DNA from: Dioscorea cayenensis subsp. rotundata
Lineage: Eukaryota; Streptophyta; Magnoliopsida; Dioscoreales; Dioscoreaceae
Direction: 5' to 3'
Assembly (NCBI RefSeq): GCF_009730915.1
Contig: NC_052474.1
Location: 6,421,501-6,485,500, forward strand
Length of the DNA stretch: 64,000 nucleotides
The translations under genes were made by a program, and so were the position numbers. The notes beneath the pieces were generated by a model that worked only from the letters and a program-made list of their open reading frames with translations, ran no database searches and was not told the origin of the DNA. Positions 26,678 through 49,557 of this stretch are shown here, in pieces. Every line of letters starts with the position of its first letter. Position 1 is the first letter of the stretch.

Positions 26678-29600
26678 ATGGGCAACTGCAACGGCCTCCC
26701 GTCGGCCTCCGGACAACCTCCGGCCACCGGATCCACTGCCGGACCTCCCGACCGTCCTCCTCCTCCTCCTCCAGCTCCCACCAATGGTTCCATCACCGTC
26801 CTCCCCTCCGCCAAGCCATCCCCACCTCCTGCCCCCCGCCCGATGTACGGCCGTGTTCTTGGCCGTCCGATCTCCGATGTTCGCGAGTTCTACACCTTCG
26901 GCCGTGAGCTTGGTCGTGGCCAGTTTGGCGTCACGTACTTGGCCACCGATCGGCGGACGGGCGAGCGGCTTGCCTGCAAGTCGATCGCCACGAGGAAGCT
27001 CGTCAACCGTGATGACATCGAGGATGTGCGGCGCGAGGTGCAGATCATGCACCATCTGACCGGCCACCGCAACATCGTCGAGCTGAAGGGAGCGTACGAG
27101 GACCGGCACTCGGTGCACTTGGTGATGGAGCTCTGCGAGGGTGGGGAGCTCTTTGATAGGATTATCACTAAAGGGCCACTACTCGGAGCGAGCTGCCGCT
27201 GCGCTGTGCCGTGAGATCGTCACTGTTGTGCATAACTGTCACTCCATGGGGGTCATGCATCGGGACCTCAAGCCGGAGAACTTTTTGTTTCTTAGCAAAG
27301 ATGAGAACTCTCCGCTCAAGGCCACGGACTTTGGTCTTTCCGTTTTCTTCAAGCCTGGTAACACAAAATTTCTTCACTCCAAGAAATCATTATGGCTTTA
27401 GCTTGTTCAATAATTGATGCTATTTGTGTGCACATATTCTTCGTAGTACCTGTTCAATTTGTTTTAATTATTGCATCCATTGGTTTGTTTCTTTTGTTTC
27501 CTTATTTATTTTTGCCAAGAATTAGTAGATGAATCATCTTTTAAGATGTACAAGAGGAATAAAGTGCAGATCAAGCAGGATTGATGTTGGATAGAGACAC
27601 TGAGGTTAAAATTTCTTTTTGGTGTATTAGGTATTTACAGAGCTGAGAATGAGTCACTAAAGTTTTATTGTTACAAATCGTTGCCATGTTGGTTTCATTG
27701 TTTCTTGTTTTATTTGTCATAGAACTTTTTCTATCTGGTATAATTTTCAAATCTATTGCTTTTCTTTTATCTGTCAAGAATCACTAGCTAGAACATTGTT
27801 GAAGAAATGTTGGAGGAGTAATGCATAGATCAGAAAGATTGTTTCTGGACACAGACAATGAAATCGAAACTTGTGTGTGTATTAGTTCTTTAGTGAAGTA
27901 AGAACAATCTACTAAGCTTTAACAGTATGAAAATGTTGTTATTGCTGTGACAATGGGGTGATGAGATACAATTTTGTGTGATTGTTTTGGTGTTTGTATT
28001 CTGTCTTATTTTAATCTTTTTATTCACATGACTCATTTTTTTCGTGATATTTAATGCATTGTTATGTGTCTCATTTTTTAATAAAGACTTGGTAGACAGC
28101 TCATTTTTGAAGAAATACAAGAGGAATAATGTGTGGTTCAGCAAGATTTCAATGGGCAGAGACGATGGAATCAAAACATTTTTTAAGTGTATTAGTTTTT
28201 TTAGTGGACTAACAATGGTTGTTTGAATAAACTTTTACAAAAAAAGAAAATATCAGTAGAAGATATTAACTTGTTTTGTTATTTGTGTCGACGTTTTCAA
28301 ACGAGTAACATAATGAATCTCTTAATGTTGTTAGGAGATGTATTCAAAGACCTTGTTGGCAGTGCATATTATGTTGCTCCTGAGGTATTGAGGCGGAATT
28401 ATGGTGCAGAGGCTGATATTTGGAGTGCTGGTGTTATACTTTATATCCTTCTTTGTGGTGTTCCTCCTTTTTGGGCTGGTCTGTTTAGTCTAACTACACA
28501 ATTTTTTTAATATTTATTATTAGTAGTATACAGAATTATTAGTTGTTTTTCCATTTATGCAGAGAATGAACAGGGTATATTTGATGCTGTTTTACGTGGC
28601 CATATTGATTTCTCATCTGATCCTTGGCCTTCCATATCAAGTGGAGCAAAAGAACTTGTTAAAAAGATGCTTCGGCAAGATCCAAAAGAGAGGCTTTCTG
28701 CGGTTGAAATTTTGAGTGAGTCCTCTGGATTTGATACTCGCACATGTTGTTAGGTTGAAAGTTTTCTGTGACATACACTGTCTTGCTGGGGTGTGATATA
28801 AATTTTCTTGTTCTGCGCCACTATGAAATCAACAATGAATCATGTAGCTGATATTGCATTGCATTCTTCTTTGCTTTTACAAAATTTTAGGTATAAAGCA
28901 AACTTTAGAGGCTTAGATAGATAAAGCCTAATCGTACGAAATTATTGTGCCTCCTCAACATCGCCATTTTCCTTAAGTCTCTAAATGTAATTATTACTCT
29001 TATATTCATTCTGGTTTCATCAGCATTAATTTCCTGTTGCCGAGCAACTATGGGGTTATTTAATTCATACTTAAAATTCTTACTTTCTCATTGTCAATAA
29101 TCACAGTGTTTTACTATTATCTCTGTGCAACCTAGCAATTACTTTTGCCAACCCTCGTTTCCTGCACCCCTTCTTTAATGTATACCCCAATGTAGAAAAA
29201 ACATTATTGTTAAGGAATTTTTGGGTGATTTAAAAGCTCCATTCCAGTTCTTGTGACCAACCTGTTGGTTGTTACCGCACATGTACCGCAACTGAACTTG
29301 TTCTTAAAGGTTCTGGTAAAATCACTCCCATTTTTCAAAGCATATCTCATTTCATCTAATTTGATTGTGAGAATTTTACAGATCATCCATGGGTTCGAGA
29401 AGATGGTGATGCTTCTGATAAGCCAATTGATATCACGGTCTTGAGCAGAATGAAGCAGTTTAGGGCCATGAATAAACTTAAGAAAGTGGCGTTGAAGGTG
29501 ATTGACTGCTATTTCTCATTCTTGTTTGCTTGATATGTTGCTTTTCCAAGATTGATTACAGAACATCATATTTTTGTAGGTAATTGCGGAAAATCTTTCT

Positions 29601-48073: not shown

Positions 48074-49557
48074 TCAACCATGAGTGTTCACTGCCTCCCA
48101 AACCAAATTCTTTGGTACTGGATTACCCAAGTCTCTAGCCTGCAATGCAGCAGTCCTCAGAGTGGCCAAAGTCCGGCAATTAGCCTCAATAAATGAAGCA
48201 CTAGAGTAGCTCAAATTGTGCTTCTTGCATAGCTCCTTAACCACAGGAGATATCCTCCTCAAATGGCACCTTGGCAATCTAGGGAACAAATGGTGCTCAA
48301 CTTGAAACTGCAAACCTCCATGAAGCCAATCCATCCATGGAGAACAAGTAATGTCAAGAGACCCCATTGTTTGCTTCTCAAACCAATCATTCCCTTTTGG
48401 ATGCCCAATGTACACATTGGAAGAGAAGTGATTTAAACAAAACTGAACATGTTGAAGTCCAGTGACAAGAAAACTAGCAAACACAAACATGAACCTTTCT
48501 TCCCAGTTGGGCAGGAATGAGACTAAAAATGGATACCATGTCCAGAACACAAGCACTCCAACTATCTCCTGCCACCTATCCGGCACCTTCCGTTTCGACA
48601 ACAACAACAACACTAATGACTGAACAAAAAGATTGATTCTTGCAACACTCATAACAGGGTAAAATGTCCAATGCTGATAGCTCACAAGGAATCTAGTTAC
48701 TGCATTGAAATTCATCTTTCGTTCATAGAAGTTGGATGTCAATGACTTGAAGAAATGTGAGGATACAACGAACATTGGCATGTGTTGAAGATCAGGATCA
48801 AAGTTCAAGTTATTGCAAGAGATATGATGGGCATTGTGAGTGAGCTTCCACCAAGCAATGCTGATTCCGGTGAGGCAGTTTCCGGTGATGAGTTGAGCCA
48901 AACGGTTGAAGCGGCGATTGGTCATGATCTGGTAATGGCCGGCGTCATGCCCCACCCATCCGGATTGAATCCAGAGAAACCCCATGAGGCCACCGGAGAG
49001 CAAATGAATCCAAACATTGCGCGTTGCCACAACGCCGAGCACTGCGGTCACAAACAAGCAGAACATGAAACAAAGGGAGAAGAAGACACCGTGACCCTTC
49101 TTCCCAAAAAGTCCCATCTTGACGAATTCGGCGACGAGTTTCTGGTAATCCTTAGAGACCTCGGAGACACGGTAATCGGAGTAATGACCGATGAAAAAGC
49201 GATCCAATTGCTTCCAAGAAATGCCGTGGTGGAAGGCGATGAAGGCGTCGGTGGCATCCTGTCCGGCGAGGTTCAGCAACGGGAGTTCACCGCCAGGGAT
49301 GATCCTTGAGCCATTCCGTGACATCGTAGACCTTGCCCTGGATCGAGATCCACAGATCCGACGCTTTGTTATGCTTCTCGAGTTCCTCCGTGGAAATGCA
49401 CCTCCTTTTCTCGTTCTCCATCACCATGAAACTGAAATCCAGAGAAAAAAGGTGGGATTTTTAGGATTGAAAACATGAAAATGGAATGAATGACGATGAA
49501 TGAAGATCAAAGACGGCGATTTGGGAGGCTTTACCTTGGTGTTCTTCCACTTTCCAT
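48074..49557 (-). CDS. SLD: Sphingolipid delta-8 desaturase (cytochrome b5 fusion), one frameshift
   Basis: The main frame starts at 49427 ([20 protein letters not shown]) and ends at 48074. It is an ER membrane enzyme that puts a delta-8 double bond into the long-chain base of sphingolipids. An N-terminal cytochrome b5 domain (about 10-100; [10 protein letters not shown] then [15 protein letters not shown]) is followed by the desaturase with His boxes HDAGH (160-164), HNAHH (197-201) and QVEHH (375-379). The Gln in the last box is typical of front-end desaturases. An extra base at 49295 splits the haem-binding HPGG motif; as given, translation stops two codons later. Without it the product is 450 aa, the family size. 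Upstream, a 103-bp GT-AG intron (49534-49432) joins a leader exon whose ATG at 49557 is in frame, and so could add MESGRTPSF. Confidence 0.93.
49432..49534 (-). other. Intron in the desaturase leader
   Basis: The donor accaag/gtaaag and acceptor atttcag/tttcatgg, on the minus strand, are both good plant consensus sites. The acceptor lies four bases before the annotated ATG. Leader introns are common in this gene family. Confidence 0.6.

Follow-up and report, generated by a model that had tools for sequence, protein, structure and literature searches.

One surplus base in each of five neighbouring plant genes, most likely through errors in the assembly consensus

Introduction

Residual indel errors in long-read assemblies reportedly break coding frames, a point that Watson and Warr are said to have made in 2019. 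Single-base substitutions and indels are termed common in long-read assemblies in an excerpt of PMC8290290, and, according to the available part of PMC8337076, exons at QV30 to QV40 should be largely free of errors. The direction of the errors varies among the datasets described. For raw PacBio reads an excerpt of PMC7671305 gives about 8% insertions and 3.2% deletions, and its columns for corrected data, whose headings lie outside the excerpt, list insertions of 0.30, 0.22 and 1.19 against deletions of 0.26, 0.24 and 0.23. One raw PacBio set in the accessible portion of PMC5964698 has 2.9% insertions and 8.8% deletions, and false deletions predominate in one nanopore assembly in the section seen of PMC12007338 (Kastor). 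As for genuine mutation, the Arabidopsis figures in an excerpt of PMC10731980 are 946 SNVs, 47 insertions and 62 deletions. An extract of PMC5604175 attributes high heterozygosity to yam cultivars, and conserved gene families missing from the annotation number 595 in Guinea yam and 53 in greater yam in a part of PMC9010478, figures that would fit frame-breaking errors but are no test of them.

Here we analyse a stretch of 64 kb (the window; G000:C4:6421501-6485500) from an assembly of 584,211,761 bases in 2,249 contigs, about 20 of which are long. An earlier note on this DNA had claimed that five of its genes carry one inserted base each and none a deleted base, and had read this as assembly error.

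Results

The window is plant nuclear DNA, in which seven genes were modelled by eye. Five of them have exon sums that are 1 modulo 3 as assembled. These are a calcium-dependent protein kinase (CDPK) gene on the forward strand, with Pkinase and EF-hand profiles (26678..31875; 8 exons, 1,573 nt), and, on the reverse strand, an Abl interactor-like (ABIL) gene with matches to Abl interactor 2 (33784..36574; 9 exons, 895 nt), a DUF2358 gene matching profile positions 3-113 (38616..41705; 2 exons, 835 nt), a single-exon LRR gene (42444..43974; 1,531 nt) and a single-exon cytochrome b5 fusion desaturase gene with a Cyt-b5 profile (48074..49427; 1,354 nt), which we take to be of the sphingolipid delta-8 type. 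Removal of one base thus turns each sum into a multiple of three, as had been claimed. The two remaining genes have unbroken frames and served as controls: a glycosyltransferase gene on the reverse strand, supported by its exon model, Pfam and the codon path described below (7135..15564; 14 exons, 3,084 nt, 0 modulo 3), and a partial ATPase-like gene on the forward strand, supported by its model and the codon path (60432..63961; 7 exons to the window edge). A Pfam search with the partial gene gave no match, and its name comes from the earlier note. GT-AG borders are present in 35/35 introns of the modelled genes and in 16/16 of the five shifted genes; GT-AG guided the models, so these counts are no independent test. 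With one frame change per gene, neither an in-frame stop nor a second shift was left in the five translations (DUF2358 as a two-exon model), and each gene has a single shift in place of the mixture of lesions (stops, deletions, splice loss) that marks a pseudogene.

All five sites hold one base too many relative to relatives, as seen from paralogs for three genes and from profile or chain joints for four. In the CDPK gene, the match to the Pkinase profile switches frame at position 94 (1-94, then 94-263), and the extra base lies somewhere within AAAGGGCC (27170..27177). All 14 paralogs of the same genome that span the site align without one base (3 further matches stop short of it); in total match length, 13 of these 14 fall one base short, and the remaining one has one base more. 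Plasmids yielded distant kinases only, with no match over more than 80% of the CDPK query. In the desaturase gene, the Cyt-b5 profile runs from 2 to 33 and then from 33 to 73 in another frame. The extra base is a single T between CCC and GGCGG on the coding strand (49295), inside the codons of the heme-binding HPGG motif, and 5/5 paralogs spanning this position lack it. It lies outside any same-base run, which counts against a reading as error.

The LRR gene is, by its colinear sequence match to the TMM ectodomain, an orthologue of TOO MANY MOUTHS (TMM). The solved chain 5xjx_C aligns over 8-295 in one frame and 294-395 in the next, and both this joint and the codon path point to an extra base at an A5 run of the coding strand (43026..43030). 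FLS2 reached a higher score only when its repeats were summed. A second DNA-level match to TMM, or a second haplotype copy, was absent from the 584 Mb assembly; because the gene has this one DNA match, a real break in TMM would leave no other DNA-detectable copy. For ABIL, the extra base falls at TTT of the coding strand in exon 3 (35852..35854), where the codon path also calls it. Once the two frames were joined with X, the match to Abl interactor 2 grew from query 38-82 (E 0.01) to query 38-110 (E 1.9e-5).

The extra base of DUF2358 lies in GGCCC of the coding strand (38748..38752). It is invisible to Pfam, whose profile ends before the site, and the codon test likewise made no call there, with a slight preference for the frame without a shift. 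The sole other DNA match in the assembly (1/1), on contig C20, has one base fewer at the site, with the alignment gap at GG (38751-38752), and reads GCPSTPKPTFF in one frame. We accept the shift because this homoeolog does without the extra base, Pfam and the codon test being silent or mildly against. A possible third exon (38380-38445), reachable by the open unshifted frame, was dismissed as an objection to the shift, as the homoeolog ends in a comparable tail and keeps a single frame up to its stop. Among 103 pattern stretches in genome_contigs, no DUF2358 relative was confirmed. Relatives of the desaturase (48074-49427) and of DUF2358 (38616-39106) lie about 9 kb apart on C20 near 31.69 Mb, pointing to a homoeologous block left by an ancient duplication of the genome. 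In Arabidopsis, a delta-8 desaturase, a DUF2358 gene and ABIL1 are presumably adjacent, which would make the window an old conserved neighbourhood.

Profiles, the solved chain, paralogs or the homoeolog thus uphold the inserted base at 5/5 sites. Most of the extra bases lie at or beside short same-base runs. An origin in homopolymers only was rejected, given the single T of the desaturase and two insertions outside runs in GRAS genes elsewhere in the assembly (L079, L085).

The window also holds a Myb/SANT (trihelix-type) open frame (22244-23480; Pfam Myb_DNA-bind_4) flanked by inverted repeats some 180 bases long, apparently a gene fragment captured within a TIR element. The repeats match in 164 of 182 aligned columns, with 18 mismatches and 4 gaps; they were rejected as a test for indels, as the gaps have no polarity. 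An intact tRNA-Trp gene (anticodon CCA; 21956-22029) adjoins the element.

A codon-usage path, trained by leaving one gene out in turn over the seven genes (9,969 nt), called one insertion each in CDPK, ABIL, TMM and the desaturase and none in DUF2358, the glycosyltransferase or the ATPase; the two controls are accordingly free of shifts, as the earlier note had stated. The path called no deletion in the seven genes. When shifts were simulated 600 times in the two unbroken genes, 267/300 deletions and 261/300 insertions were recovered, with 68 extra or misplaced calls. Five insertions out of five have P 0.031 under an even coin and are by themselves weak evidence on direction. Taking the seven genes as one set, the rate is 5 per 9,969 nt (95% range 0.16-1.17 per kb), higher than a rough outside rate of 0.083 per kb (P 0.0017). 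This comparison is tempered by the choice of the window for its shifts and by the under-detection of splits. The base counts behind the outside rates are themselves rough (50 GRAS and 36 BAHD genes in a first tally, 47 and 31 on recount).

Frame breaks elsewhere in the assembly were examined in four gene families. Among 10 GRAS splits fetched (from 16 junctions in 63 rows, 6 being left out), there were 7 clear +1 insertions, no clear deletion and 3 ambiguous cases. Two GRAS genes (L076/L077 and L082/L083) have two one-base insertions each, 3/4 of them in T runs. Four clean split pairs of DYW genes, drawn from 150 rows with stop-bearing rows left out, comprised 2 insertions, 1 one-base deletion and 1 two-base deletion. 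Exact one-base profile offsets back 4/7 of the GRAS calls and 2/3 of the one-base DYW calls, the others having been judged by eye from known motifs of the families. The LRR sample covered 60 of 150 rows, hand-picked mostly on large contigs, 57 of them with a reference. Exact one-base shifts numbered 7 insertions and 2 deletions, with 2 of these insertions and 1 deletion in genes that also carry stops. By tblastn, 19 of the 57 referenced genes (L014-L071) have a frame break or stop and 38 are clean; several have many lesions. True pseudogenes are also common in the LRR family of this assembly.

Taken together, the clear one-base breaks of GRAS, DYW and LRR genes outside the window amount to 16 insertions against 3 deletions (P 0.0022), or 14:2 without the stop-bearing LRR genes (P 0.0021). 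Looser counts give 13:6, together with 21 stops, for all tblastn shifts in the 57 LRR genes, and 37 insertions, 24 deletions and 17 stops for the codon path in all 60, where exon ends and pseudogenes are included. The same fault therefore occurs elsewhere in the assembly, though BAHD genes showed none: 31 full-length single-exon rows (about 40 kb) were all unsplit, against an expectation of about 4.8 frame splits based on GRAS and DYW (P 0.008). Since the BAHD genes have no splits, the errors would be uneven. The absence of deleted bases thus holds for the seven genes of the window and fails genome-wide, with at least three one-base deletions in the outside sample.

Discussion

We conclude with considerable confidence, on sequence grounds, that the five extra bases are probably errors of the assembly consensus, by far the likeliest cause, and that the plant itself would lack them. 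Assembly error is favoured because the five sites differ from relatives, no stops remain, TMM has one DNA match and insertions recur in the assembly. Evidence on the other side comes from the unsplit BAHD genes, the higher rate within the window, the less skewed loose LRR counts and the desaturase base outside a run. The assembled consensus would hold one surplus base per site, mostly at or beside short same-base runs, and insertions would cluster in poorly corrected stretches, sometimes two per gene. The judgement of the earlier note that five side-by-side pseudogenes are improbable is borne out by relatives without the base, by translations free of stops, by the one DNA match of TMM and by the +1 insertions in other genes.

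Real insertions would call for a haplotype that is mutated or decaying in a clonal heterozygous crop, the intact allele having been dropped by the assembly. The high heterozygosity of yam cultivars in the extract of PMC5604175 speaks for such a haplotype, as do the 21 stops in 57 other LRR genes, by which real pseudogenes exist in the assembly. We nevertheless regard it as quite unlikely, because the five genes have no in-frame stop, a second haplotype copy of TMM is absent from the assembly and the recurrent +1 insertions in GRAS genes would require the same spectrum genome-wide. Moreover, by the proportions excerpted from PMC10731980, five insertions of ordinary mutational origin would be accompanied by about 7 deletions and 100 substitutions, and 5 insertions with 0 deletions have P 0.015 at that insertion share. 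Slightly less probable still is a plant in which one-base insertions at short coding runs are truly in excess across the genome, for instance because replication or repair is faulty in the clone, with five neighbours hit, including the one TMM copy. That the extra bases are real but harmless, through ribosomal frameshifting or mRNA editing, we consider extremely improbable: by reading, the five sites have no motif in common, and the paralogs of CDPK, desaturase and DUF2358 do without the bases. Recoding of this kind is not known from nuclear genes of plants.

Within the preferred reading of consensus error, the source of the errors is less clear-cut. The claim that insertion-only errors mark raw or poorly polished long reads is not supported as worded by the published spectra, at least as excerpted: corrected PacBio data are near-balanced in some columns (PMC7671305), deletions prevail in a nanopore assembly (PMC12007338) and one PacBio set is rich in deletions (PMC5964698). 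The excess of insertions found here (16:3 by the strict count, 13:6 and 37:24 by the loose ones) does not single out a bias of the raw PacBio type. A plausible though less favoured source is the correction step, through the merging of two haplotypes into one consensus or poor polishing where reads mapped badly, in place of an insertion bias of raw reads. Such an origin agrees with the PMC7671305 excerpt, where some corrected columns have insertions and deletions at almost the same rate, and the two GRAS genes with two insertions each, alongside BAHD genes with none, suggest patches.

As biology, the five shifts are most likely an artefact and no real feature. Genes in the region may be wrongly called broken; anyone using the assembly would take TMM, or another gene without a further detectable copy, for lost and would overcount broken genes. 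The earlier note's view that any gene model from the assembly would be split or truncated may be too sweeping, as some annotation pipelines correct such frames. GRAS and DYW domains offer a cheap, read-free test for such errors.

Compared with known systems, the locus resembles plant pseudogenes in presenting frame-broken copies of known genes. Unlike plant pseudogenes, the genes of the window have one event each and no stops, and TMM has no other DNA match in the assembly. The bias toward insertions also sets it apart from the nanopore assembly of PMC12007338, where, in the section seen, most errors are false deletions. The closest likeness is to residual long-read indel errors, with which the locus shares indels of one base that disrupt genes otherwise conserved and that often sit at short runs; at about 1 per 2 kb, the window stands near QV33, within the range of QV30-40 given in the available part of PMC8337076.
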